DNA of 29,748 nucleotides from a virus: IMG/VR virus record IMGVR_UViG_3300036781_000255, positions 1 to 29,748 of that record. One strand, 5' to 3'. The notes below the pieces were generated by a model. The model was not told the origin of the DNA. It worked only from the letters and a program-made list of their open reading frames with translations, and searched no databases. How positions within the stretch are numbered: position 1 is the first letter of the stretch; every line of letters begins with the position of its first letter. Both the position numbers and the translations under genes were made by a program. Shown here one piece after another: positions 13,319 through 29,496 of the stretch.

Positions 13319-14593
13319 CTATAGGGCGCTGGAAGTGTCGGCCCCCTGCATTTGCATCTCCTCGGCACGCTCAGCGTATGTCTGTCCTGTGCGTTCTAGC
13401 GTCGCTTGCTGGCCGGTGAAATTCTGCCAGCGTTGGATTGCGACATCGACATATTGCGGACTAATCTCGATGGCGTGGCACACGCGGCCGGTCATTTCGG
13501 CGGCGATGATCGTGGTTCCTGAACCAACGAACGGATCATATACCGCTTGGCCAGGGCTGGAGTTGTTCTCGATAGGGCGCTTCATGCATTCGACGGGCTT
13601 CTGCGTGCTGTGGCCGGTGTCGTTATTCCGATGCTTGTCTATTTGCCAGAGCGTAGTCTGTGAACGACTACCACTCCAGTGGCCCGTCCCGCTTCGGCGG
13701 ACTACATACCAGCAGGTCTCGTGCTGGTTATGATAATGCCCTCGACCGAAGGTATGGGCTGCCTTGGCCCAAACTATCAGGTTGCGGGTCTCTAATCCAA
13801 CCGCCTCCATCTGCCGCGCCATCGACACCAACTGCCGCTCACCGTGCCAGACATAGGCAACATCGCCAGCGAACAGCGACCATGCCTCCGACCAATCAGC
13901 CTGGTCGTCGTTTCCTACCTTGCCGATCGACCGTTTGTAGGTAGGCTGTTGGCCAATAGCCTTCTGATATTCGTTCCGCCACTCTGCATCATAGCTAACC
14001 CCATAAGGCGGATCGGTGACCATCAGGTGCGGCCGCACGCCGCCCAGCGCCAGCGCCACGTCAGCCTCGCTCGTCGCATCGCCGCACGCCAGCCGGTGCC
14101 GCCCAAGCAACCATACATCGCCTGTGCGAGACACAGACTCGGCCGGTGCCTCGGGCACCTCATCGGGATCAGTGAGGCCATCCGTGCGTGGCGTAAGCAG
14201 TTCGGTAAGTTCGAGGCCGGAGAAGCCGGTCAGACCTAGATCGAAGCCATCGAACTGCAGATCGATCAGCTCTGCCCGCAGCAGTTCGTCCGACCAGCCG
14301 GCATTGAGCGCGAGCTTGTTGTCCGCAATGCGCAGCGCGCGCTTCTGGGCGGCTGTGAGGCCATGGAGCGCGATGGTGGGGACTTGCTCCATCCCGAGGC
14401 TGGCCGCCGCCAGAAGCCTGCCATGGCCCGCGATGACGCTGTTGTGGTCGTCGGTCAGGATCGGGTTGGCAAAGCCATACTCGCGGATGCTGGCGGCGAT
14501 CTGCGCAATCTGCTCGGGGCTGTGGGTGCGCGCGTTCTTCGGATACGGTGCTAGATCGGCAATGGGGAGGTAGCAGATTGCCAGGTCGGGCAT
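13319..14593 (-). CDS. ParB-domain fused DNA methyltransferase (beta class, N6-A or N4-C)
   Basis: 424 residues, ATG at 14593 with GGGAG six bases upstream. Residues about 5-110 are a ParB/Srx-like N-terminal domain (NARTHSPEQIAQIAASI, VIAGHGRLLAA). TDPPYG (193-198) is the catalytic motif IV, and DPFVGSGTT (353-361) is the SAM-binding motif I. The order IV before I marks the beta class. It methylates adenine or cytosine in phage DNA, perhaps for protection or packaging control. It lies just upstream of the terminase small subunit, and no matching restriction enzyme is near. Confidence 0.85.
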   Translation of the reverse strand: MPDLAICYLPIADLAPYPKNARTHSPEQIAQIAASIREYGFANPILTDDHNSVIAGHGRLLAAASLGMEQVPTIALHGLTAAQKRALRIADNKLALNAGWSDELLRAELIDLQFDGFDLGLTGFSGLELTELLTPRTDGLTDPDEVPEAPAESVSRTGDVWLLGRHRLACGDATSEADVALALGGVRPHLMVTDPPYGVSYDAEWRNEYQKAIGQQPTYKRSIGKVGNDDQADWSEAWSLFAGDVAYVWHGERQLVSMARQMEAVGLETRNLIVWAKAAHTFGRGHYHNQHETCWYVVRRSGTGHWSGSRSQTTLWQIDKHRNNDTGHSTQKPVECMKRPIENNSSPGQAVYDPFVGSGTTIIAAEMTGRVCHAIEISPQYVDVAIQRWQNFTGQQATLERTGQTYAERAEEMQMQGADTSSAL

Positions 14594-14658: not shown

Positions 14659-15228
14659 CATTCCGTAGTGGTCGGTGAGGCGGGTGAGGCCGACATCTAG
14701 TATGTCTCGGGATGTGCCATGCCTACATCTGCGTGACATATCAACGACTTGCAGGGTCACATGGCCCAGCACGACGAGGCGCACGATATCGGCGACCATG
14801 GCGTTGTTTTCTGGCCCGCGGATGGCCAGCCACGCCTGCCGCACGCTGCGTTGGGCATCGAGGAGAAGCTGGGCGGGGGTTTGGCCGTCTCCGGCGGCAG
14901 CGGCGATGTAGCTCATCCAGGCCATGGGGCGGACGCCGTTGGCAATGGCGTTGTGGCGGCGGAACTCCTCTGCGGCGAGCCACTGGGCGCGGCCTGGGCC
15001 TTCGCGGGTCACGTCGAGGATGGCGATGAGCGGGTCGATGCGGCGGGCCACACGGACTGTGGCGCCGCGTTTGTCGGGGTGTTCGATGTCGACGATGTCG
15101 GCCAGTTCCATGTTCGCGGAGGCACCGATGCGGGTGGGTGTGAGGCGCGCGTTGCGGCGCACGAAGGCGTGGCCGTAGTCGTCCGGGTGGTCGAGCAGCG
15201 CGGTCGCAGCGGGGCGGTGCTTAACCAC
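14653..15228 (-). CDS. Unknown phage protein, DUF6456-like C-terminus
   Basis: 191 residues; GTG at 15228 overlaps the preceding TAG by one base. The C-terminal segment (DILDVGLTRLTDHYG) and the middle RRHNAIANGVRPMAWMSYI remind me of the DUF6456 region seen in alphaproteobacterial phage proteins, a weak match. The N-terminus begins MVKHRPAATALLDHPDDYGH. No catalytic motif is visible. Lying between the replication and packaging genes, it could be a late regulator. The family call is tentative. Confidence 0.55.
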   Translation of the reverse strand: MVKHRPAATALLDHPDDYGHAFVRRNARLTPTRIGASANMELADIVDIEHPDKRGATVRVARRIDPLIAILDVTREGPGRAQWLAAEEFRRHNAIANGVRPMAWMSYIAAAAGDGQTPAQLLLDAQRSVRQAWLAIRGPENNAMVADIVRLVVLGHVTLQVVDMSRRCRHGTSRDILDVGLTRLTDHYGMA

Positions 15229-15656
15229 TATGGAGCGTCCTCCTCTGTGGAGGATTTGGCACGCAGATCACTAGCCAAACCTTCGAGTAAACCGGCCAAT
15301 TTACGAGCCTCTAACTGCTCCTCGGCACCCAGCCTGAATACGTTTTTCCGATAAGCGCCGCGTTGTTTGATAAAACTATCGATCAGTTCTGCTAGGCTGA
15401 TCCTCAGCGGCATTTCATATTCGAACAGTCCGAAGGTAAGTGTTCCGTCACTCCCGATATCTGCCATCGTCGTTTCACGTATCTGCTCCAAGACTGCAAC
15501 TGCGGCCCTTCGGAAAAGAGCCGTGATGACCGGATTGGAATCGAAATCAGACCAATCCCATTGAGCCAAGTAGTCAGCGATCTTTTCGTCGTTGGTATCG
15601 AGGGTTACGCCCCATTCATTGGGTTCTTCGGTCGCAGCAGGTCGGTGTCGGGGCAT
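15228..15656 (-). CDS. Unknown protein (142 aa)
   Basis: Starts MPRHRPAATEEPNEWGVTLD at 15656. It is acidic, mostly helical, with WDWSDFD at about 33-39 and a long helix near the C-terminus (GAEEQLEARKLAGLLEGLASDL). No recognised domain, membrane segment or catalytic motif. Coupled by TAGTG to the next gene. It is the first gene after the structured 282-bp intergenic block. Its G+C is lower than that of its neighbours, which may mean a separate origin. Confidence 0.55.
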   Translation of the reverse strand: MPRHRPAATEEPNEWGVTLDTNDEKIADYLAQWDWSDFDSNPVITALFRRAAVAVLEQIRETTMADIGSDGTLTFGLFEYEMPLRISLAELIDSFIKQRGAYRKNVFRLGAEEQLEARKLAGLLEGLASDLRAKSSTEEDAP

Positions 15657-15720
15657 CTATTGTCCGTCCCATTAATAAGACATTGCCGGTCTTTGCGGAG
15701 AACTGGGCGCGCCGGACACT

Positions 15721-15830
15721 GGACCGTAGGTAAAGCTGGAGAATCCGCCGCGCAGAGCGCGTGCGAACTTCTGCGAGCTTTTTGGCTCGCAAAGTACGCA
15801 TGCGGACTTCTCCACTTTACCTTTAGGTCC
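15721..15830. repeat. Large inverted repeat predicted to fold as a three-way junction
   Basis: The outer arms (15721-15748 and 15801-15830) align as GGACC, AGGTAAAG, TGGAGAA and TCCGC blocks with only short bulges. Inside are a side hairpin CGCGC-AGA-GCGCG (15749-15761) and an apical stem built from TGCG / CGCA, ACTT / AAGT and TGCGAGC / GCTCGCA (15762-15800) with a T-rich loop. The same fold is possible in DNA cruciform or RNA on either strand. No U tract follows on the minus strand, so it is not a simple terminator. Confidence 0.6.
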
Positions 15831-15911
15831 GGGGAGAAGTTCCCCGCACCATTTGCGAGGTTCTGCGGAGTTATCCGGGCAAGAAGTCCGCAGAAGATGA
15901 AGAAGTCCGCA
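15801..15911. repeat. Three copies of the 11-mer AGAAGTCCGCA
   Basis: Exact copies at 15882-15892 and 15901-15911 are in direct orientation, 19 bases apart. One exact inverted copy lies at 15801-15811 and forms part of the large foldback. A degenerate copy (AGAAGTtCCcCGCA) lies near 15835-15848. Even spacing and inverted placement look like protein-binding iterons or operators, perhaps for the adjacent helicase or its C-terminal winged helix. Confidence 0.55.
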
Positions 15912-15935
15912 CCCCCAATAAGGGAGGAAAACACC

Positions 15936-15971
15936 ATGTCAGATCGGCTCCTGGAACTGTCCCATTCCTGA
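15936..15971 (+). other. 11-codon leader-like frame with strong ribosome site, opposite strand
   Basis: On the plus strand, AAGGGAGGA sits eight bases before an ATG that encodes MSDRLLELSHS and stops. It overlaps the 3' end of the minus-strand helicase gene. The ribosome site is one of the best in the window, yet all neighbouring genes run the other way. It may be chance, a leader peptide, or the remnant of an inverted gene. Confidence 0.2.
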
Positions 15972-17192
15972 GACTTTAGCGAGATTGACCCGGACGCAGG
16001 CCGTCAGATGGCGCGACTTAGGCGATAGATACTGTCCTTCTTCCAGGACCCCGCTCGCCTTCCACTGCTTCAGCATCAGCTTGGCCTGTTCCTTGGTTTT
16101 GTCGGCGTCATCCATGATTACGGCGCCGGCCCAGCGGTCCTTCGACTGCGGGGAGAAGGCGTAATACTCACCATCTCCCGGACCCTGGTCGATGAGTTCC
16201 AGGATGCGAACAACCCTGGACATTGGGATGCCATCCCAGGCTGACGGCGGCTCCCACGATATCAGAGCCGCAACATGGTCACCGTTGGGGTAGGCCACAG
16301 TGCCATTATCGAGCGAGACCTGATCGAGCCTGAACCATTTCGCCTTAGCGGCGGGCGCCATGTTGCGCTTGGCGTCGTCGAGACGAACGTACTGCCAGCA
16401 GTCATCGGCCTCGATGCCGAAGGCCTGCCCCTCCGCGACATTCATCGTCGACATCAACAGGCCGACCCTGGCGCTGTCGGTCAACGCCTTGGCGCCACGA
16501 GCGGCGTCTATGCCGCCCGCGTCCCCTTTGCGCACATGATGCACCAGCAGCACCGCGCAGCCTGTAGCGCGCGCCACGCGGCGCCACGCCGCCGCTGCCT
16601 TGACCATCTGAGGGTTGCTGTTTTCCTCTAGGTTGTGACTCTCGGCGTAGGGATCGCAGATCAGCACCCCGATTTTGTTGCGCTGGATCTCTTTGATAAG
16701 CTGCTCCTCGTCGGGGAACACGATGGAGAACCCGTCATCTCCTAGCGCCGCCATGGTCAGGCTGCGCTCCTCTCCGGTGTCGAGGAATAGCCGTCCGGCG
16801 ATGTCGTCGCGCTTTATCTTGTGGCGTATCATGAGCGCCGCCAGCCTGCGCTCCAGTTCGTCCATCGGATCTTCTAGATTGAAGATGGCGGAATTGACCT
16901 GGCAGAAAATATGATCGCCCAGCACCGACTTGTTGGCCGTTAAACCCAACGCCAGCGCCATGGCATACGCCGACTTACCGGTCCCACCGGGGGCGACCAG
17001 GACCGTGACATACCCGCGTACAAGCTGTGTGCCGTAGAGCCATTGACGAGGGGGGATGGTGGATGGGTCAGGCAGCCTGGCCGGATGAAGGGTGAGCGGC
17101 GGCTTTTCCTCGACATCACCATTGACCAGCCTGGGGCGCGGCCTAGCTTCACCCCGCTCATATGCGCGCCAGGTGGCCTCATGCGTATCCAT
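15939..17192 (-). CDS. RepA-like AAA (RecA-fold) replicative helicase
   Basis: 417 residues. The ATG at 17192 is chosen because GGGAGG lies seven bases upstream; an in-frame start seven codons earlier lacks this. Walker A is APGGTGKS (67-74), Walker B is VLICDPY (176-182), and VLLVHHVRKG at about 217-226 matches the AAA_25 / RepA hexameric helicase pattern. The C-terminal about 100 residues look like a winged helix (DRWAGAVIMDD ... LMLKQWKASGVLEEG). It probably unwinds phage DNA at the origin, and the structured repeat block lies immediately downstream. Confidence 0.8.
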   Translation of the reverse strand: MDTHEATWRAYERGEARPRPRLVNGDVEEKPPLTLHPARLPDPSTIPPRQWLYGTQLVRGYVTVLVAPGGTGKSAYAMALALGLTANKSVLGDHIFCQVNSAIFNLEDPMDELERRLAALMIRHKIKRDDIAGRLFLDTGEERSLTMAALGDDGFSIVFPDEEQLIKEIQRNKIGVLICDPYAESHNLEENSNPQMVKAAAAWRRVARATGCAVLLVHHVRKGDAGGIDAARGAKALTDSARVGLLMSTMNVAEGQAFGIEADDCWQYVRLDDAKRNMAPAAKAKWFRLDQVSLDNGTVAYPNGDHVAALISWEPPSAWDGIPMSRVVRILELIDQGPGDGEYYAFSPQSKDRWAGAVIMDDADKTKEQAKLMLKQWKASGVLEEGQYLSPKSRHLTACVRVNLAKVSGMGQFQEPI

Positions 17193-17646
17193 GGCGCCGC
17201 CTCCCATAAACAACAGGCAACGAGTTGTTCACGGTGTCGACTGCTGCCTGCGTTACCTGCTCCTCTGTGAGCCAACGCCCGGACGAGCCATTTACCCCGT
17301 GCGCCTCGGCTAGAATGACATTCTTGGTCTGGTGCTCTTTGATTAGCGGATGCAGGCAATCTGCAATGCGTCGCTCGATGTCGCATCGGATGCGATAATG
17401 ATGGCTGACATGATTGGAGTAAGTCTGCCATACCCTTTGGAAGAGGCCCGCATTATCTGGGGCTTTGCTGGATGCCAGGGCCAGCGCAGCGTATGCATGA
17501 GATGGATATAGATAGTTCCGTCCAGTCGCCCTCGCCAAGCAACATGCTAGAGAATGCACGGTCTCATGATCGGGATCGGGCACTTGGGCGCGTATTCTCA
17601 GTGGCAGAGAATTGCGCGCAGCACGTCGCGCATCGACCGAGATCAT
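17179..17646 (-). CDS. Unknown protein upstream of helicase (155 aa)
   Basis: ATG at 17646 with a near-perfect AAGGAGG nine bases upstream. The protein begins MISVDARRAARNSLPLRIRA and is His/Tyr-rich in the middle (QTYSNHVSHHYRIRCDIERR). It contains four Cys but no clear zinc pattern. It overlaps the helicase start by 14 bases, so it is translated together with it. A replication accessory role is inferred only from the neighbour. Confidence 0.6.
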   Translation of the reverse strand: MISVDARRAARNSLPLRIRAQVPDPDHETVHSLACCLARATGRNYLYPSHAYAALALASSKAPDNAGLFQRVWQTYSNHVSHHYRIRCDIERRIADCLHPLIKEHQTKNVILAEAHGVNGSSGRWLTEEQVTQAAVDTVNNSLPVVYGRRRHGYA

Positions 17647-17972: not shown

Positions 17973-18139
17973 GCTGCCTTCTCCCCCACCCAGCACTCCA
18001 TGCACTTGCACCGCACCGGCTCGCCGCGCTTGAGCAGGAACAAGTCCCGCACCTCGTCGTCGCCCGGCGCGAACGCGACGATGTCCTTCGATCCGCATTC
18101 GTCGCAGCGCAGGTCGGCGATGCGGATGTCCATCATCAT
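17969..18139 (-). CDS. 56-residue zinc-ribbon protein
   Basis: Starts MMMDIRIADLRCDECGSKDI, ATG at 18139 overlapping the methyltransferase stop (ATGA). Cys12-x2-Cys15 and Cys44-x-Cys46-x2-Cys49 make a zinc-ribbon pattern, with the pairs about 30 residues apart. Such tiny ribbons in phages act as transcription or DNA-modification accessories. Here it is coupled to a DNA methyltransferase on one side and an unknown protein on the other. Confidence 0.6.
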   Translation of the reverse strand: MMMDIRIADLRCDECGSKDIVAFAPGDDEVRDLFLLKRGEPVRCKCMECWVGEKAA

Positions 18140-19218
18140 GCCATCACCACATCAGCAAACAGTGGTGCATCGCCAACTATTCGTTCATGAGCCTGATCGG
18201 TATATTGGTCAGTGTTTAATTCGATCAGCACAGAATGGCGCTGGTGAATGTCAGCAGCCAGTCCAGTGGTGCCCGCCCCGCCGAACGGGTCTAGCACCGT
18301 ATCGCCGATGCGCGAGCCGGCCAGGATGCAGCGTGCCGCCAGGTCAATCGGCATGGTGGCGAAGTGGGCGCCTTTGTATGGCTTGGGCGTGATCGTCCAG
18401 ACATTGCGGGCGTTACGTTTGCCGTCCGCGCGGTTGCCCGCCCGACCTTTGACCATACCGAAGTCAACGAATCCATCTGTTCCGCCAGTATCCCGACGCT
18501 TGCCGGTTGATTCGGCTTGTTCCATAATCGCATCCGCATCATAGAAATAGCGATCCGACTTCGCCAACAGGAACACCATTTCGTAAGCCGAAGTCGGCCG
18601 GTCCCGCACGCTTTCCGGCATCGGGTTGGGTTTGTGCCAGATGATCGCCGAGCGCAGCCACCAACCGTCAGCTTGCAGCGCGAACGCTACGCGCCAGGGG
18701 ATACCGAGCAAGTCTTTGGGTTTTATGCCTTCGCCCGTGGTGTTTGGACGGTCAAAGCCGCCACCTGCCAGCGCGTAGCCTTGCGTCCGCCGCCCGTCGC
18801 TGCCGCCCACATTTGCATACGAGTCGCCCAAATTCAGCCACAGCGTTCCATCGTCGCGCAGCAGCCGGCGCACGCCGCGGAACACGTCCACCAACCGCGC
18901 CACGTATTCGTCGGGCTCCTGTTCAAGGCCGATCTGGCGGTCTACACGGCGGGCGCCGCAGTGGCCGCAAACGTCTTTGAACCCTTCCTGCAGGTGCCCG
19001 GTGGTTTTCTTGCCGCCGCCAAGAGTGCTTTTGCTGATTGCCCCCGCTTCGTCCTGCACCTTCTTGTGGTCACAGTCGGCGCTGCCGCCTTCCCACTCCG
19101 CGGTCCCATAGTCCCGCAATCCGTAATACGGCGGGCTGGTGACGCAGCACTGCACCGACGCATCGGGCAGTGTGCGCATTATCTCGCGGCAGTCGCCATG
19201 TAGGATCCGGGTGATCAC
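18136..19218 (-). CDS. DNA methyltransferase (TSPPY type) with cysteine-rich insertion
   Basis: 360 residues from a GTG at 19218 that overlaps the GcrA-like stop (GTGA); a longer frame start lies inside that gene and is rejected. TSPPY (27-31) is motif IV and DPFGGAGTT near residue 310 is the SAM-binding motif, in beta-class order. An insertion at about 48-90 carries CDH and CGHC groups, a likely zinc site. It probably makes N4-methylcytosine or N6-methyladenine. Coupling to a GcrA-like activator suggests methylation-linked transcription control. Confidence 0.8.
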   Translation of the reverse strand: MITRILHGDCREIMRTLPDASVQCCVTSPPYYGLRDYGTAEWEGGSADCDHKKVQDEAGAISKSTLGGGKKTTGHLQEGFKDVCGHCGARRVDRQIGLEQEPDEYVARLVDVFRGVRRLLRDDGTLWLNLGDSYANVGGSDGRRTQGYALAGGGFDRPNTTGEGIKPKDLLGIPWRVAFALQADGWWLRSAIIWHKPNPMPESVRDRPTSAYEMVFLLAKSDRYFYDADAIMEQAESTGKRRDTGGTDGFVDFGMVKGRAGNRADGKRNARNVWTITPKPYKGAHFATMPIDLAARCILAGSRIGDTVLDPFGGAGTTGLAADIHQRHSVLIELNTDQYTDQAHERIVGDAPLFADVVMA

Positions 19219-19706
19219 CCCACTTCCACCGACCGGCTGCGCGGCGCATACGCGAGCTTGCGACACTCCGGGCAATACGGCTGTCCCCGCTCCGCCGGCT
19301 CGCAACAGAACCTAAAATCCCGCGTTCCTGGTTCACCGATCGGCCAGCAGCATTCGGAATCTTTCCGAATCGCAGGCTTATCGGCCGGCGGTGATGAAGG
19401 CCGGCGAACGACTGGCATGATCGCCTCCCGCTTGAACGGCTCCTCGGCAATGGCCCGCAGCGATGCGAGCGCTGGTAGAACCGATGCGGCGCGGTCCTGC
19501 GCAACGAACGGCACGATCCGCGTATCTGGGCTGACCGGCAGCCGCGCAGTGGGGGACGCAATCAGCTTTGGTAGATGAAGCCTGTGCGCCCGCCCTACGA
19601 CCGAACACTTGGATCGGCCGTCTAAATATTCTCCGATCTTGGATGCCGAGATTTTCCCCCAATTATCGCGGAGGAACAGGTCGTCGCGCTCGGACCATTC
19701 TTTCAT
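19215..19706 (-). CDS. GcrA-family transcription regulator
   Basis: 163 residues; the ATG at 19706 overlaps the previous stop (ATGA) and follows a GGGGGG tract. The N-terminal 48 residues (EWSERDDLFLRDNWGKISAS, then IGEYLDGRSKCSVVGRAHRL) are the GcrA DNA-binding homeodomain-like fold. The C-terminal end (CCWPIGEPGTRDFRFC, PYCPECRKLAYAP) is the GcrA sigma-binding and cysteine-bearing tail. In Caulobacter, GcrA activates promoters carrying methylated GANTC with sigma-70. A phage copy next to a methyltransferase may redirect that control. Confidence 0.85.
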   Translation of the reverse strand: MKEWSERDDLFLRDNWGKISASKIGEYLDGRSKCSVVGRAHRLHLPKLIASPTARLPVSPDTRIVPFVAQDRAASVLPALASLRAIAEEPFKREAIMPVVRRPSSPPADKPAIRKDSECCWPIGEPGTRDFRFCCEPAERGQPYCPECRKLAYAPRSRSVEVG

Positions 19707-21915: not shown

Positions 21916-22176
21916 ATGCCACGTCAATTCGTACTTGAGTGCCTCGTTGATCTGCCGCCCGATGCCTTCGATCAGGCCGAGATCATCGCCAAGATCAAGG
22001 CCCCATGGGCCACGCTGGTCGAGGCACTGAACGACAGCTCCGTCAACTTCCAGCAGAAGTCCGAGATCATGGAGGTGCGCGCCAAGCCTGCCACAGGCGC
22101 CAAGCGCGGGCGCAAGCCGAAGGCCCAGCCTGCTCCAGCGCTCGCCTTCGCGCCGCCCCCAGAGGCCGCGGAATGA
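21916..22176 (+). CDS. Small unknown early protein with basic Ala/Pro-rich tail (86 aa)
   Basis: ATG at 21916 with AGGAGAAA ten bases upstream. Residues 1-55 form an alpha/beta fold (MPRQFVLECLVDLPPDAFDQ), followed by a KRGRKPKAQ segment like an AT-hook and an Ala/Pro tail. It may bind DNA as a partner of the nuclease whose start overlaps its stop (ATGA), but this is inference. Confidence 0.55.
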   Translation: MPRQFVLECLVDLPPDAFDQAEIIAKIKAPWATLVEALNDSSVNFQQKSEIMEVRAKPATGAKRGRKPKAQPAPALAFAPPPEAAE

Positions 22177-23081
22177 AGATCAGCGCGCCCGGCGTCTACT
22201 CGATGCCTTCGGCCGAATACCACAGCGATTGCTGTGACGGGCCGTCGCTCAGCAGCACGGGCGCGCGCACTCTCGTGCGTCAATGCCCTGCTGCCTACAA
22301 GTGGGAAAAGGCCAATCCTCCCGTCAAGTTGGAATTCGAGATCGGCAACGCCACACACCTCCTGGTGCTGGAGCCGCATCTTTTCGAGCAGGCGGTGCGC
22401 CGCATTGCCTATGACGACTATCGCACCAAGGCCGCGCAGGAGGCGCGCGATGAGGCTCGTGCCGCAGGGCTGATCCCATTGCTGCCAAAGCAGCAGGAGC
22501 AGGTAGACGGCATGCGGTCGTCGCTGCTCGGCGATCCAATCGCTCAGTTCGCACTATCTGGCGGGTTTGAAGTCGAGCAGTCGATGTTCGCGCGTGATCC
22601 AGAGTTTGACGGGTCCTGGGTGAAGTGCCGGCCCGATGTCAGGCCGAAGTCACGTCGGTATCTCGCCGACCTGAAAACGACATCCAATGCAGACCCGGAA
22701 GCCTTCTCAAGAGCGATCTTCGATTACGGCTACCACCAACAGGCGGCCTGGTATCGCTGGGTCGTCGATCTGGTTCTCGGATACCGCGCCAAGGACTTCT
22801 ACTTCCTGGTCGTATGCAAGCAGCCGCCGTATCTGGTCACCACCATCCGCCTAGACGATGAGGCGATCGGCTGGGGCGAGATCCTGAACCGCCGCGCCCG
22901 TGGCGTCTTTGCCTGGTGTCTGCGCCACGACGAGTGGCCGTCCTATCGGCCAGTGCTTCACGAGCCGCCTGCCGCGTTCAACGTGGGCCTGCCTGGGTGG
23001 GCGGTGCGTGAATACCAACGCCGACACGAGGAGGGGGAGTTCGAACCCCCGCCAATGGAACCGGAGGAAATGGCAGCATGA
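22173..23081 (+). CDS. PD-(D/E)XK exonuclease, RecE/YqaJ-like
   Basis: 302 residues from the ATG at 22173 (ATGA overlap); a longer frame from 22005 is antisense-like and rejected. FEIGNATHLLVLEP (55-68), RPD (153-155), YLADLKT (163-169) and YHQQAAWY (187-194) give the motif set of phage RecB-family exonucleases: Asp155, Asp166, Lys168 and the Gln pair. It degrades one strand of duplex DNA so that the partner protein can anneal. The next gene encodes the likely partner. Confidence 0.8.
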   Translation: MKISAPGVYSMPSAEYHSDCCDGPSLSSTGARTLVRQCPAAYKWEKANPPVKLEFEIGNATHLLVLEPHLFEQAVRRIAYDDYRTKAAQEARDEARAAGLIPLLPKQQEQVDGMRSSLLGDPIAQFALSGGFEVEQSMFARDPEFDGSWVKCRPDVRPKSRRYLADLKTTSNADPEAFSRAIFDYGYHQQAAWYRWVVDLVLGYRAKDFYFLVVCKQPPYLVTTIRLDDEAIGWGEILNRRARGVFAWCLRHDEWPSYRPVLHEPPAAFNVGLPGWAVREYQRRHEEGEFEPPPMEPEEMAA

Positions 23082-24217
23082 GCGATCAAGCAGAATATGA
23101 GGGCGATATCATTGAGCCGCCCCGAACCTCGTCTCCACCTGTCCCGCACAATCCGTTTGCGGTCGCTGCGCCGGAGCATCTGAGTGCTGGCGCAGTCGCG
23201 ATCGAGAGCCAGCGTGGCGTTGCCGAAGTCCAAGGCCGGATGCTGATCGCAAAGCGGTTCCCGCGTGACAGCGCCCTTGCCTATCAGCGGACGATGACTT
23301 CATGCCTGCGCATCGGCCTAGCCACTGAGGCACTTTACAAGTTTCCCCGAGCTGGCGGCGCGGTCGAAGGACCAAGCATCAGGCTGGCCGAGGAGATGGC
23401 CCGATCCTGGGGTAACGTGGAGTATGGACTAAACGAACTGTCGCGCCGATCGGGCGAGTCCGAGATGGAGGCCTTCGCCTGGGATCTTGAGACCAACACT
23501 AGATCGTCCCAACGCTTCACCGTGCGTCACATCCGAGACCGGACGGAGGGCGGTAAGGCTCTGGATACAGAGCGCGACATCTACGAGATCACGGCCAATA
23601 TGGGTGCTCGCCGCATGCGTTCCCGCATCTTGGCGATACTACCGCCGGAATTGGTGCGTGACGCAATCGCTCGGTGCAAGCAGACGATGCGTGATGGCGG
23701 TGGTGAGCCGCTAGAGGACAGGATTAAGCGGATGATGGCGGCATTCCAGCCGCTCGGCGTGATGCCGCAGATGATAATTGACCGCCTGGGCCATTCCATA
23801 GACAGGGTTACCCCTGACGAACTGGTGGACCTCGCCGGCATCTACCAGTCGCTGAAGGACGGCCAGACCAAAGCGGCTGACTGGTTCGGTCGCAAGGATC
23901 CGCCGAAGGACGCCGATCCATTCGAGCAGGCAGCAGCCGGCAAGCGGCCAACGAAAAAGCAGCAAGACAACACGTTCGAGCAAGCGGCGGCTGGCGCCCC
24001 TACGACGCTGGTGGAGAAGCCGAAGGATGAAGCCGCTGAGATAGGCGACGAGGCCGCTCAGTTCATCTCCCAGTTAGCCGGCATGTCGCAGACCGAGGTC
24101 GAGCGCCTCGACACCAACCCCGCCCACAAGGCGTGGCTGAAGAAGCTGCCGAAGCCCGAGTATGACCGAGTGGCGCAGGCCATCACCGACCGCCTGTTAG
24201 CGAGGCTGGGCGCATGA
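23078..24217 (+). CDS. Conserved phage recombination-associated protein (annealing-protein candidate)
   Basis: 379 residues, ATGA overlap with the exonuclease. Residues about 40-205 (AIESQRGVAEVQGRMLIAKR, PSIRLAEEMARSWGNVEYG, ITANMGARRMRSRILAILPP) belong to a family I recognise from many phages, always next to a RecE-like exonuclease. It is usually annotated as hypothetical. By position it is the single-strand annealing partner, a RecT/Erf analogue. The C-terminal 110 residues hold two copies of a FEQAAAG segment (about 287 and 308) and an acidic linker, possibly an SSB-binding tail. Confidence 0.65.
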   Translation: MSDQAEYEGDIIEPPRTSSPPVPHNPFAVAAPEHLSAGAVAIESQRGVAEVQGRMLIAKRFPRDSALAYQRTMTSCLRIGLATEALYKFPRAGGAVEGPSIRLAEEMARSWGNVEYGLNELSRRSGESEMEAFAWDLETNTRSSQRFTVRHIRDRTEGGKALDTERDIYEITANMGARRMRSRILAILPPELVRDAIARCKQTMRDGGGEPLEDRIKRMMAAFQPLGVMPQMIIDRLGHSIDRVTPDELVDLAGIYQSLKDGQTKAADWFGRKDPPKDADPFEQAAAGKRPTKKQQDNTFEQAAAGAPTTLVEKPKDEAAEIGDEAAQFISQLAGMSQTEVERLDTNPAHKAWLKKLPKPEYDRVAQAITDRLLARLGA

Positions 24218-24926: not shown

Positions 24927-24935
24927 GATGGGGTG

Positions 24936-25391
24936 GTGCTGCTGACCAAAGCCATGGTGATCCATTACGCAATCACGTGCGGGCATGTTGACCCGGACGT
25001 GGCGGCTATGATGGCGATCACCGCCTGGAAAGAGAGCCGGTTTGAGACAACAGCGATCAGCCCGCCCAACCGCGACGGCACCCGCGACTTCGGTCCCTAT
25101 CAGATCAACGCAAAGAACCTCGCGCCCCTTGGCCTAACCGAGCAGACGGCGCTCGATCCCTGTGAAGCGTCACGCGCCGCAGCGACATGGTTCAAGGTTC
25201 TAAGCGTCTACAATACCGGCACCGAGCGCGCCGGCATCCTCAACGGATATGCCGGCGATACCTACGCACACCGACACGACGCGGGAGGGGTGCCAGTATC
25301 GCCGCCGCACGCGGCAGAACCCGACACAACACCCGAGCCAGTTCGTGGTGCCCAGCAAATCCTAGTCTTCGATGGATGGAGCAAAGAATGA
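24936..25391 (+). CDS. virB1: VirB1-like lytic transglycosylase
   Basis: 151 residues from the GTG at 24936, chosen over the GTG at 24933 because AAGGA lies seven bases upstream. WKESRF gives the catalytic Glu33; DFGPYQIN (about 51-58), ALDPCEASRAAATW and NGYAGDTYAHR are the conserved parts of VirB1 and related SLT-domain proteins. It cuts peptidoglycan to let the secretion channel or pilus pass. There is no N-terminal signal peptide, which is odd for a periplasmic enzyme. Coupled to virB2 by ATGA. Confidence 0.8.
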   Translation: MLLTKAMVIHYAITCGHVDPDVAAMMAITAWKESRFETTAISPPNRDGTRDFGPYQINAKNLAPLGLTEQTALDPCEASRAAATWFKVLSVYNTGTERAGILNGYAGDTYAHRHDAGGVPVSPPHAAEPDTTPEPVRGAQQILVFDGWSKE

Positions 25392-25663
25392 CCCCAATCG
25401 CGGAACGCGTAATAGCCACGCTTGTCTTCTGTCTGATCGTGACGGCAGCGATGGCGCAGAATGTTGACTTCGACGCATCGATGCAGGGCTGGTCAGCTAT
25501 CGCCTATGGAACCGGCGCCAAAATACTAATTGGCAGCATCATGGGCTATCTCATGTATTACGGGCTTGCCCACCAACATTTGTGGGTCTCTCTCTGCGGA
25601 GTCCTGGGAGCCGTCGCGTATTTCAGCGTCGGCGTGCTGATGGGCCGCATGAAAATAGTCTGA
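25388..25663 (+). CDS. virB2: VirB2-like pilin
   Basis: 91 residues, ATGA overlap. Residues 1-23 form a signal peptide (VIATLVFCLIVTAAMAQ, cleavage likely after AMA). Two hydrophobic helices follow (TGAKILIGSIMGYLMYYGLA and VSLCGVLGAVAYFSVGVLMG), the standard VirB2/TrbC pilin plan of small, two-helix cyclic or linear pilins. It would form the pilus shaft. Identification rests on architecture and gene order, as pilins vary in sequence. Confidence 0.7.
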   Translation: MTPIAERVIATLVFCLIVTAAMAQNVDFDASMQGWSAIAYGTGAKILIGSIMGYLMYYGLAHQHLWVSLCGVLGAVAYFSVGVLMGRMKIV

Positions 25664-25983
25664 TGACCGAAGACGACGAGATCGCCGATCGGTTGCTGTT
25701 GCCACCGTGCCGGCCGGAATTGATGCTGGGCATCCCCTATTATCACTTCCTCGCCTTGTGGGCGATCTGGGCTGTCGGTCTTATCGTGTTCGGGGCGATC
25801 ATCACCGGCACCGGTCTTTGCGTCATCGCCGGCCTATTCGAGCGCGGCATTACGGCCTGGGACTTCAATGCAATCCCTGTTGCCATGGTTTATCGCCGCA
25901 CGAAGCTAGTCGCTACCCGCTCTACGGTCTGGATCAGTGGCGTCACTCTCGATCCACTTTACGGACAGAGAAAGCCGCGATGA
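25663..25983 (+). CDS. virB3: VirB3-like inner-membrane protein
   Basis: 106 residues, TGATG overlap with virB2. It starts MTEDDEIADRLLLPPCRPEL. RPELMLGIPYYHFLALWAIW followed by GLIVFGAIITGTGLCVIAG gives two membrane helices typical of the VirB3 family, and the C-terminal DPLYG motif is commonly seen. VirB3 anchors VirB4 to the inner-membrane complex; the next gene is virB4. Confidence 0.75.
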   Translation: MTEDDEIADRLLLPPCRPELMLGIPYYHFLALWAIWAVGLIVFGAIITGTGLCVIAGLFERGITAWDFNAIPVAMVYRRTKLVATRSTVWISGVTLDPLYGQRKPR

Positions 25984-28343
25984 TCCGCATCCGGCCCGGT
26001 GGTGGAGACGTGCTGAAATATGCCGACTACGAAGGGCATATCCGCCCGAACGTCATCAAACGCGGAGATGACTCCTATGTCGCCATGTGGCGCGTCGAGG
26101 GACTGCCATTCGAAACGCTGGAGGACGACCTACTCTATGCCCGCCGCAACGATGTCAACACGCTGCTGATCAATATCGCCAGCGAGCGGCTGGTCATTGC
26201 GGCCCATGAAGTCCGCACGCTCGCCGAGGACAACATCATCCCAGACGGCGAGTTCGTCACAGAGTTCGGCCAGTCATTCCATGAGGCATTGCGCGAGCGT
26301 CTGACCAGGGGTAGCGCGCCGCTCTATTCCATCGAGCAGTTCCTAAGCCTAACGGTTCGTCCCCACGCCCCAATGGGCCGCACGGTCGCCGGCTTCCTGC
26401 GCTCGGCGCAATTGCAGGAGGACGAAAGCGAGGAAGACGCAATCAAGTTCCTAGAGGATCGCGCTGCGATGATAGCGGCCGGCCTCAAAGCCTATGGCCT
26501 GCGCCGGCTCGGCTACAGAGAGACCCACGAGGGACTGTTCAGCGAGCCGGGCGAAGCGATGGTGCTGATCCACAGCGGACGCCGCACGCCGGTTCCGGTG
26601 CCCGATGGCCCGCTCGGCGATGCGCTCTACGTCGAACGGACCCACTGGGGACCGGGTAGGACAATTACGATAGACCAGGCTGACGGCAGGCAACGCTATG
26701 CCTCGGTCTTTGGCTTCAAGGTGCCTGGCCATCCATGCAGACCGTGGGTATTCAACCACCTGAAATCGAGCGCGCTGGAGTATTCGTTCTCGCGACATTT
26801 TCACTACATGCCATTGGCCAAGGGCGAGGCCACGACCAAGAAGAAGATTCGCCGCCTGGAGATCACCAAAGATCCAGGACTTGATCAGGCGGCCGCGCTG
26901 CAAGCGCTCCGAGGGCGCTTGATGAGCCGGCGCTCGATGATGGGAAATCATCACAACGTGCTGACCATCTTCGCCGACAGTCCGGAGGGACTTGAGCTTG
27001 CCGCCCCCGAGGCGCAGGCCCAGCTCGCGCGCAACAACGCCTCGGTCGTGCGCGAGGATTGGGTCGATTTGCCGGCCTACTGGTCGCACCTTCCTGGCAA
27101 TGTCCATCTGTGGCCGCGCCCGATGCCTGTGACCAGCGACAACTGGGCCAGCATGGCGTCGTTCAACGCCTATCCGATTGGACCTGAGAAAGGACGCTGG
27201 GGGCCGCCCGCAATCATATTCCGCAGCGCCGGCGGAACGGCCGTGCGCCATCACTGGCACCGCCGCGATGTCGGCAACTTTGCTTGGTTCGGTCCTACCG
27301 GGGGCGGCAAGACGGCAGGAGTGCTTGCGCTGTTGGCGCAGAGCGAGCGCTACGACCCCCGCCCCCAGATCGTCTACTTCGACCAATACCGCGGCGCCGA
27401 CATAGGCCTACGGGCCTTGGGCGGCGCTGACAACTACCACGTCTATCAGGACGGTTTGGAGACTGGATGCGCCCCACTCAAGGCCCTCGATCCGAGCCTC
27501 CCGCGCGACATGGCCTGCCTACGCTATATCGCCCGCGGCCTGATCGGCGGCCAGATCGATCGCGAGGAACAACGCGCCATCGCGTTGGCATTGAACATGG
27601 TCATGGAGATGCCGGTCGCTGACCGCTCATGGGGCGAGGTACGCGCCATGCTCGGCTACGAGCGCGGCGGCATCGGCGAACGGCTGGAGCCATGGTGCCG
27701 CGGCAACGAATACGGCTGGGCGCTCGATTGCCAAGAAGACCGGCTTTCCTTCGCTAGTCGCGTGTCTGGTCACGATACGACCGGCATCGTCAGCAATGAG
27801 GCTGTCCTGGGGCCGATCCAGGGCTATCTGGCCTACCGCACGGAATCAATCCTGGATGGTCGCCGCGCGATCATCATCATCGACGAGTTCCACCACTGGA
27901 TCGAGAACCCGTTCTGGGCTAAGCGCGCCGCGTCTCTCGCGCGCACTATCAGGCGTCGTAATGGCATTCTCGGAATGTTGACCCAACACCCGGCCGATAT
28001 CGCCAAGTCATCCTTCGGCCACACGCTAATGCAGCAGACGCCGCAGCAGTTCTTTGCGCCTGACCCGCGCGCCAAACCCGAGGACTACGTCGGCGGCGCG
28101 CAGGTCACCGAGATTATGTTCAACAAAATTAAGCGGGGGATGAAGTCGGGCGCGGGCCTGCATCTCCGCGTCGTCGACGGCGAGGCGATGGTCGTGCAAC
28201 TGCCGCTCTCCGGTCTCGACGCACACCTCGCCGTGCTGTCGTCGCGCGACACGGCGGTCGCACTGGCCGGCGAGATCCGCCAGCAGAGTGGCAAGGAATG
28301 GGTCAACGAGTTCATGCGCAGGCATGAGGAGGCAGCGGTATGA
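25980..28343 (+). CDS. virB4: VirB4-type secretion ATPase
   Basis: 787 residues, ATGA overlap with virB3; a frame extending back to 25707 reads through virB3 and is rejected. The CagE/TrbE/VirB4 N-terminal domain occupies about 1-400. Walker A is FGPTGGGKT (about 436-444) and Walker B is AIIIIDEFHH (about 628-637). The TQHPADIAKS segment after Walker B is also typical. Length is normal (VirB4 proteins are about 790-820). It powers assembly and substrate movement in the T4SS. It is intact and clearly not a phage terminase. Confidence 0.92.
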   Translation: MIRIRPGGGDVLKYADYEGHIRPNVIKRGDDSYVAMWRVEGLPFETLEDDLLYARRNDVNTLLINIASERLVIAAHEVRTLAEDNIIPDGEFVTEFGQSFHEALRERLTRGSAPLYSIEQFLSLTVRPHAPMGRTVAGFLRSAQLQEDESEEDAIKFLEDRAAMIAAGLKAYGLRRLGYRETHEGLFSEPGEAMVLIHSGRRTPVPVPDGPLGDALYVERTHWGPGRTITIDQADGRQRYASVFGFKVPGHPCRPWVFNHLKSSALEYSFSRHFHYMPLAKGEATTKKKIRRLEITKDPGLDQAAALQALRGRLMSRRSMMGNHHNVLTIFADSPEGLELAAPEAQAQLARNNASVVREDWVDLPAYWSHLPGNVHLWPRPMPVTSDNWASMASFNAYPIGPEKGRWGPPAIIFRSAGGTAVRHHWHRRDVGNFAWFGPTGGGKTAGVLALLAQSERYDPRPQIVYFDQYRGADIGLRALGGADNYHVYQDGLETGCAPLKALDPSLPRDMACLRYIARGLIGGQIDREEQRAIALALNMVMEMPVADRSWGEVRAMLGYERGGIGERLEPWCRGNEYGWALDCQEDRLSFASRVSGHDTTGIVSNEAVLGPIQGYLAYRTESILDGRRAIIIIDEFHHWIENPFWAKRAASLARTIRRRNGILGMLTQHPADIAKSSFGHTLMQQTPQQFFAPDPRAKPEDYVGGAQVTEIMFNKIKRGMKSGAGLHLRVVDGEAMVVQLPLSGLDAHLAVLSSRDTAVALAGEIRQQSGKEWVNEFMRRHEEAAV

Positions 28344-28711
28344 ACTGGAATGGCATAGGTTGGTGCGCGAGTGGGCTGCTGGTTGGTGGCGTGACGGCTC
28401 CGCTCATTATCTGGTGGCCGCAGATCAGCAGCACGACACCGATCGGACATGGCGGCAGGGCGCCTCCAGCCGCTGAGCAACCCGCGCCAGCCGCCGTGGC
28501 GATCCTGGTGCCGGTACAGCCGCCCCAGCCCGAGATCCATTCCGTTCCATGGTTCGTGGAGCATGAGAGCGCGATTGCGCCCCGGCGCGCAGACTGCGCA
28601 AACAATGCGCCGGCATCCATGGCGGCGGCGGCAGAATGCGGCAACGCAGACCGCGCCAGCCTGCACGTCTTCAATCAGCAACTACGCGCAAAGTATTTTG
28701 GCGGGAAATGA
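28340..28711 (+). CDS. EexN-like small protein of the T4SS operon
   Basis: 123 residues, ATGA overlap. Residues 5-26 form a membrane helix. A Pro/Ala-rich linker leads to a C-terminal part WFVEHES...CANN...ECGNADRAS, which follows the W-x2-H ... C-x2-N ... C-x-NA pattern of EexN/TrwH-family proteins. EexN proteins reduce entry of related conjugative elements. Here the N-terminal segment is a non-cleaved anchor rather than a clear lipobox. Family match is by pattern and moderately uncertain. Confidence 0.55.
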   Translation: MNWNGIGWCASGLLVGGVTAPLIIWWPQISSTTPIGHGGRAPPAAEQPAPAAVAILVPVQPPQPEIHSVPWFVEHESAIAPRRADCANNAPASMAAAAECGNADRASLHVFNQQLRAKYFGGK

Positions 28712-29496
28712 AACGGCTCATTCTCACAGTCGCATTGCTCGGCATCTGTCCGTTAGGCGCGCACGCCGACGTGCCGGTCATCGACTTCGCCGGACTCAGC
28801 GCACAGATTAAATCGTTCGCTGAAAGCGCAAAGCAGACCGTGCTACAAAACGCGGTAGTCGCTAACACGCTGGATACCGTCCACACGGCGCAAGGCATCC
28901 TACGCGATACGACCGGGACGCTTCAGGAAGTGACCAGCCTCTACGGTTCAGTGACAGGCGTCCGAAGCATCGGCCAGGGCGTTAGTCTTGCGCTTGGTAG
29001 GCTCGGCATTCAGGACCCATTGCCATACTCGGTCGGTTCGGTCTCTGGCCTGATGAACAGCCGCAATCCCATGGGGTTGATAAGTTCGCTGGGCGCACTC
29101 GGCTCATCCTACACTGCCGACACCGGATACAACACGATATGGCACCCGTCCGATCCGAACAGCGACGGCGCGCAGGCGATGACAGCGAGGATCGGCGTGG
29201 TTTCGGCAGCCCAAGGTACCGGCGAGACGATGTTCACCGCAGCGCAGAACCGCATGCCACTGCTGCGCAACCTGACCGACCAGGTGAACAACGCAAAGGA
29301 TGGCGCAGAGCGCGAGGTCCTGCTCGCTCGCTTACAAGGTGAGACCGCATTGACGCAGGCGGCCACCAACGAAGCGATCTCTGCGCAAATGATGGCGTCT
29401 GCCGCAAAGGACGCGGAGGACCTACGCGCGCAGCAGCGCCAGCAACAATCGCTGCACGAATTCAACGACGCAGCGCGTCAGTCGGTGGGGTGGTGA
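28708..29496 (+). CDS. virB5: VirB5-like minor pilus protein
   Basis: 262 residues, ATGA overlap; a longer frame start at 28636 lies in the previous gene and is rejected. Residues 1-21 are a signal peptide (LILTVALLGICPLGAHA). The rest is nearly all helical, with Gln/Ala-rich coiled segments near the end (AAKDAEDLRAQQRQQQSLHE), the pattern of VirB5/TraC/TrbJ pilus-tip proteins. It sits between the EexN-like and VirB6-like genes, the usual place. Confidence 0.7.
   Translation: MKRLILTVALLGICPLGAHADVPVIDFAGLSAQIKSFAESAKQTVLQNAVVANTLDTVHTAQGILRDTTGTLQEVTSLYGSVTGVRSIGQGVSLALGRLGIQDPLPYSVGSVSGLMNSRNPMGLISSLGALGSSYTADTGYNTIWHPSDPNSDGAQAMTARIGVVSAAQGTGETMFTAAQNRMPLLRNLTDQVNNAKDGAEREVLLARLQGETALTQAATNEAISAQMMASAAKDAEDLRAQQRQQQSLHEFNDAARQSVGW

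Follow-up and report, generated by a model that had tools for sequence, protein, structure and literature searches.

A probable replication origin of repeated words and a foldback beside a RepA-type phage helicase gene, with the helicase's own winged helix as predicted reader

Ring helicases of the DnaB/RepA type (SF4) usually depend on an initiator that is a separate protein, and in many cases on a loader as well. The window analyzed here, i.e., the whole stretch of 29,748 bases of IMG/VR virus record IMGVR_UViG_3300036781_000255, raises the question of what fills the 282-bp gap (15657–15938) between the gene of such a helicase and a small ORF (15228–15656, minus strand). The original prediction offered two answers for the repeats and hairpins of this gap: an origin recognized by the helicase, or a structured RNA. 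The gap is very probably the replication start site of the phage, as argued below from sequence comparison, and the origin is the better supported of the two options owing to the co-variation of a helicase wing with the repeated word across 86 relatives and to the presence of the same unit on circular phage-plasmids.

Word copies and foldback of the gap

The features of the locus are listed in Table 1. Exact copies of AGAAGTCCGCA occur only three times in the window, all inside the gap. With up to one mismatch allowed, the window holds five matches, four of which fall in the gap, against 0.42 expected and a maximum of 2 in 100 shuffles. The three 11-bp copies described originally are therefore real as exact copies, although one of the three is inverted and further near-copies are present. 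Folding of the block yields the three-way junction with two side hairpins that had been described, together with the third hairpin and an additional one further along. Relative to shuffles, the whole gap folds with RNA parameters at z -5.1 on the plus strand and -6.4 on the minus strand, and the 112-nt core (15721–15832) folded as DNA reaches z -10.4. The block had been judged unlike a terminator, and this holds: the stem lacks a U tract and no terminator-like site was found in 15500–16100. Sigma-70-like promoter sites are likewise absent from 15500–16100, no tRNA was found in the analysis of the gap, and no Rfam family matches anywhere in the window at the gathering score.

Table 1. Features of the block and of the neighboring helicase gene
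Feature	Position	Strand	Basis or remark
AGAAGTCCGCA, exact copy	15901–15911	+	Word count in window
AGAAGTCCGCA, exact copy	15882–15892	+	Word count in window
AGAAGTCCGCA, exact copy, inverted	15801–15811	-	Word count in window
One-mismatch copy AGAAGTTCGCA, arm of central hairpin	15762–15772	-	Word count
Near-copy AAGTACGCA, opposite arm of central hairpin	15792–15800	+	9-mer array scan
Near-copy AACTCCGCA	15864–15872	-	9-mer array scan
Putative iteron array, phage-specific word AGAAGTCCGCA, direct and inverted	15762–15911		Score 4.8; largest shuffle score 2.2
Three-way-junction foldback, 110 nt	15721–15830		Fold prediction; outer stem 15721–15748/15802–15830 around hairpins 15749–15761 and 15762–15800
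Third hairpin GGGGAGAAGTTCCCC	15831–15845		Fold prediction
Hairpin TTCTGCGGA...TCCGCAGAA, word copy paired with inverted near-copy	15861–15895		Fold prediction
RSF1010-RepA-type (AAA_25, RecA-fold) replicative helicase gene, C-terminal winged helix	15939–17213	-	PF13481 E 5e-36
C-terminal winged-helix domain, residues ~329–418, proposed iteron reader	15960–16229	-	AF2 and structure matches
Wing tip, residues 397–406, including R401, H402, C406 (best word-tracking positions)	15996–16025	-	Column and block association
Small conserved gene overlapping helicase start; negative control for co-variation	17179–17646	-	No known domain

Arrays and stems in the relatives

Another IMG/VR contig, L002, shares this block apart from an indel of one base at the far end. 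The phage and plasmid collections hold no DNA-level relatives of the window, and relatives were therefore gathered via the helicase protein, which retrieved two loci from bacterial genomes and about 200 from viral contigs; 107 remained once redundancy was removed. Words were sought as 9-mers with one mismatch allowed, so that the register of a reported word may shift. A significant word array, as scored against shuffles of the same stretch, follows directly 3′ of the helicase gene in 86 of the 107 relatives; it starts a median of 9 bp past the helicase stop codon and has a median of seven copies. The word is approximately 9–10 bp long and phage-specific: its sequence varies between phages and the architecture is constant. 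The words are widely different, e.g., AATTGGCGC, TTATGGCGC, AACCGTAGC, GAAGTGGCGT, AAGTGCTGC, TTTGTAGCG, AATTGACGC, GACTGACGA, TTCCGCACC, and TGCTCCACC among the relatives and AGAAGTCCGCA in the window; GGCGC, CCGTAGC, and TGACGC are examples of word types in natural relatives. An inverted copy is present in 81 of the 86 arrays, and 73 show the order W..rcW..W (W, word; rcW, its inverted copy). A GC hairpin is common between rcW and W, and the usual architecture is W..rcW-hairpin-W..W within a longer stem. Spacings between words on the same strand peak at 11–12 bp (145 of 336), which is close to a single turn of the helix. The array of the window is less canonical than most, with three exact copies and with outer copies that are inverted relative to those of most relatives; in word and wing it comes closest to L094 (GAAGTACGC/GAAGTCCGC) and L086 (GAAGTTCGC).

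Each word is nearly absent from the remainder of its locus. Of 40 multi-kb loci tested over their full length, 37 have their strongest word cluster at the array. Phased direct repeats that are unique to one site are a general feature of iteron origins, and the arrays share this feature. The threshold for an adjacent array was failed by 21 of the 107 relatives; some of these, including L031, L073, L110, and L116, have no significant word cluster near the helicase. Three other loci outside the 86 have a displaced cluster of the type that their wing suggests: AAGCGTAGC at +1.8 kb in L078, GAAGTTCGG at +3.6 kb in L087, and AGTGGCGCA at +0.3 kb in L090, a check made post hoc, once the association of wing and word described below had been noticed. 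The exact string predicted for L078, CCGTAGC, is absent there; the cluster found by the scan shares its CGTAGC core.

Further observations stand beside this set. The isolated Rhodoferax phage P26218, whose RepA-type gene is more distant, carries a TTGTAGCAG array with a foldback (L040, 2840–3000) approximately 0.5 kb beyond that gene, and Microcystis phage Mae-Yong1326-1 is another isolated phage that has the system. In addition, the Acidisoma genome that contains L037 holds a second RepA-type helicase, L121, and the words differ (ATTGGCGCA in L037 and CCACACTAG in L121), as expected if private words separate co-resident elements.

Because a global MAFFT alignment of the arrays contained too many gaps for covariation to be read column by column, the pairing of stem arms with their own partners was compared with that of arms exchanged between phages. 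With the word copies removed, the outer-stem arms of 31 loci pair at -20.9 kcal/mol with their own partner vs. -13.7 kcal/mol when exchanged (permutation p 2e-4), and the arrays of close relatives (L043, L047, L055, and L056 compared) show clean C-G to G-C double exchanges. Compensatory changes, whose absence from relatives had been named among the refuting conditions of the original prediction, are thus present, and both results indicate that the foldback structure is maintained. Folding favors neither strand across the 86 loci (the sense strand is better in 38), which agrees with a hairpin or cruciform in DNA and lends no support to an RNA.

The unit of array and helicase gene is shared by four complete circular plasmids from Alphaproteobacteria, i.e., Rhodoplanes serenus plasmid 1, Microvirga terrae pR24_3, Methylobacterium indicum pVL1_6, and a Microvirga lotononidis plasmid, with the array directly after a related RepA helicase gene. 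At least two of the four carry annotated phage genes (terminase and portal on the Rhodoplanes plasmid, tape measure on the Methylobacterium plasmid). On pR24_3, pVL1_6, and the Microvirga lotononidis plasmid, a toprim primase gene either adjoins that of the helicase or overlaps it, and the gene tables of pVL1_6 and pR24_3, which are incomplete and list many genes as hypothetical, name no other initiator.

Other genes of the window contig were also noted. Type IV secretion genes lie at 24933–29496 (plus strand) on the same contig as terminase, portal, and head genes, with matches to VirB4 (PF03135 E 2e-18), a VirB5-like protein (PF07996 E 5e-14), an SLT transglycosylase-like protein (PF01464 E 5e-6), and a VirB3-like protein (E 2e-4, just under the cut-off); the contig may be a conjugative phage-plasmid or may run across a junction into another element. 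At 22005–24217 (plus strand), an Exonuclease VIII/RecE-like gene (phrog_412 E 5e-83) is followed by that of a phrog_3657 protein (E 1e-98), RecT-like by position only, and the two are likely a phage recombination pair. A ParB-N domain fused to an N6/N4 DNA methyltransferase is encoded at 13319–14593 (minus strand), and a second methyltransferase gene lies at 18136–19305 (minus strand).

The helicase and its winged helix

A profile of the helicase relatives matches one solved family, RSF1010 RepA (1g8y, E 1.2e-24), and the core of the AF2 model superimposes on RepA (1olo) with Z 22.9 and an rmsd of 3.3 over 240 residues, followed by DnaB and T7 gp4. The helicase core is homologous to RSF1010 RepA (PF13481/1g8y) and has the RecA fold. 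The C-terminal domain matches no Pfam family, and its profile search returned weak matches (FeoC E 0.03; SlyA/MarR E 0.12); its fold was recognized through structure only. Modelled alone by AF2, the domain has a pLDDT of 86.6 and the element order H-H-H-E-E-H, and winged helices make up the overwhelming majority of its structure matches (BLM/RECQ1 RQC, PadR, MarR, and MecI; best Z 7.2 with 87 aligned residues). A Z of 7 is modest, yet the order H-H-H-E-E of the model and the kind of matches agree on a winged helix.

If the helicase binds the word, the word should track the DNA-reading residues of the helicase, and this prediction was tested across the relatives. The distance between words correlates with that between winged helices (r 0.50), and the partial correlation given the ATPase core is 0.36 (p 0.0005, indicative because the relatives are phylogenetically related rather than independent points, which makes Mantel p-values optimistic). 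The reverse partial correlation, of word with ATPase core given the winged helix, is 0.064, and sets of ATPase columns matched for rate reach at most 0.19. The nearest neighbor by winged helix also predicts the word better than the nearest neighbor by ATPase core, distant pairs included. Among 338 columns, those best associated with the word are 402, 360, 406, and 401 (window numbering), three of which lie in the wing; lysine at position 402 accompanies a GGCG-core word in 31 of 39 loci, whereas arginine does so in 2 of 36. In ten-residue blocks, the partial r is 0.343 for 397–406 and 0.169 for the next best block. Block 407–416, the nearest to the array, has a partial r of 0.041; linkage is therefore a poor explanation of the signal, since the residues closer to the array are unassociated with the word and those of 397–406 are associated. 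This strong co-variation marks the C-terminal domain of the helicase as the predicted iteron reader.

The small gene overlapping the helicase start, which has no Pfam or PHROG match, is kept in 30 relatives and stands where the phage-plasmids have their toprim primase gene. As a candidate word reader it was rejected: in these 30 loci its correlation with the word is r 0.04, and that of the winged helix is 0.51.

Origin, rival readings, and known systems

The case for origin function is circumstantial. A GC-skew change was looked for at the block in the window and did not appear, and the mean skew of 36 relatives shows no switch there either (0.014 on the left and 0.007 on the right, with the right exceeding the left in 17). 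Nor is there a clear AT-rich melting region, the sequence before the array showing a mild dip to 54–56% from 62% GC. Moreover, co-variation ties the wing to the word and not to replication, and many winged helices are repressors, so that the words could form an autoregulatory operator through which the helicase or another regulator controls transcription of the replication genes, with replication starting elsewhere. We regard this as unlikely: the arrays of the 86 relatives lie 3′ of the helicase gene rather than upstream, the window block lacks a promoter-like site, a covarying foldback is not a feature of operators, and the tables of pVL1_6 and pR24_3 offer no other named initiator. The wing codons do lie within a few hundred bases of the array, and a single recombination block could carry both, leaving wing and word functionally unlinked and the cluster a product of chance, of selfish repeats, or of co-inherited neighboring DNA. 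We give this reading very little credence because the association is held by 397–406 and not by 407–416 beside the array, because arrays displaced by kilobases keep a word of the type of their wing, and because the words are essentially confined to the array site.

The strong fold obtained with RNA parameters and the covarying stem arms would also suit a structured RNA transcribed from the block, whether a 3′ UTR element, a small RNA, or an antisense RNA. This second option of the original prediction appears very unlikely, given the lack of strand preference over the 86 loci and of any Rfam match; furthermore, the direct copies phased at 11–12 bp lie outside the fold, suit binding to double-stranded DNA, and follow in sequence a DNA-binding wing. 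Repeat arrays with stems are known from centromeres and pac sites as well, and both the ParB-N/methyltransferase gene and terminase genes share the contig; a partition (centromere-like) or packaging site is nevertheless highly improbable here, as the array accompanies the helicase, the word tracks the helicase wing, and the terminase genes are some 3–4 kb distant.

The reading that we prefer, and consider probable, is that the gap is an origin whose iterons are bound by the helicase's own winged helix and whose foldback serves opening, loading, or priming. The word array, here of AGAAGTCCGCA, would constitute the iterons, and the protein acting on them would be encoded directly upstream on the same strand. 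Through binding by the C-terminal winged helix, copies of the ring helicase would be brought to the origin, and no further initiator would be needed to bind the iterons. Once the iterons are occupied, the central rcW-hairpin-W, inside the longer covarying stem, may extrude as a cruciform or single-strand hairpin and thereby provide a single-stranded entry or priming site. Computation shows the array and its architecture, the winged helix, the co-variation of wing and word, the covariation of the stem, and the conservation of the unit; physical binding, origin function, and the role of the foldback are what we infer from these comparisons.

Parts of this arrangement have precedents. Phage P4 alpha carries a winged-helix origin binder, a helicase, and a toprim-type primase on one chain and acts with iterons. 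The window protein likewise appears to join a putative winged-helix origin binder to a helicase, with iterons, but it lacks a primase domain, and three of the phage-plasmids have a toprim gene immediately upstream of that of the helicase. P4 alpha and its ori are discussed in PMC4234260. The IncQ plasmid RSF1010 uses RepA, RepB′, and RepC, its oriV iterons being bound by the separate RepC and its hairpins ssiA and ssiB serving as priming sites (PMC4234260). The window system shares with it a helicase homologous in profile and fold, and iterons and hairpins at the putative origin. By contrast, RSF1010 RepA is a single-domain protein, whereas the iteron reader of the window is proposed to be fused to the helicase; the C-terminal winged helix and the tracking of the iteron by the wing indicate a RepA-family helicase but not an IncQ-type replicon. 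In the pRN1-family plasmids and phage BIP-1, a C-terminal winged helix is combined with a stem-loop origin of approximately 100 nt downstream of the replication gene, conserved in structure and not in sequence (PMC4234260). A large conserved stem-loop 3′ of the replication gene and a C-terminal winged helix recur in the window system, although pRN1 has a primase/SF3-helicase fusion and no iterons, whereas the window has a RepA-type helicase and iterons in and around the stem.

PMC7581432, with reference to Ubeda et al. (2007) and Mir-Sanchis et al. (2016), describes for SaPI Rep an iteron origin right after the gene of the initiator-helicase, whose C-terminal domain reads the iterons, and proposes the same for SCCmec Cch2; initiator and helicase are united in one protein, self-loading is proposed, and the cores are DUF927 or D5/Primase_Cterm. 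The window phage and its relatives agree with these systems in having the array immediately downstream of the helicase gene and differ in their AAA_25/RepA RecA-fold core. Lactococcus phage F13 GP46 is a 5′-3′ phage helicase of the same RepA/AAA_25 type, for which the accessible text of PMC8965321 describes no origin, iterons, or winged helix. The window system joins SaPI-, pRN1-, and RSF1010-like features on a RecA-fold helicase, a combination that appears to be new although each kind of feature is known; a literature search, with most subscription journals outside its coverage, found no description of it.

With somewhat less than even confidence, we suggest that this is a widespread replicon of phages and phage-plasmids whose ring helicase, of the RecA fold (SF4), is its own loader at the origin, in which a short wing code determines the word that is read, in which wing and word drift together to give each phage a private origin, and in which a cruciform that includes the iterons is also the single-strand loading or priming site. 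One phage protein appears to unite the motor with the origin reader, and the co-variation of wing and word amounts to a readable wing-to-word code across many phages. The helicase gene alone may thus allow origins to be predicted in unculturable phages, and origin specificity, phage incompatibility, and the role of origin cruciforms would become testable.
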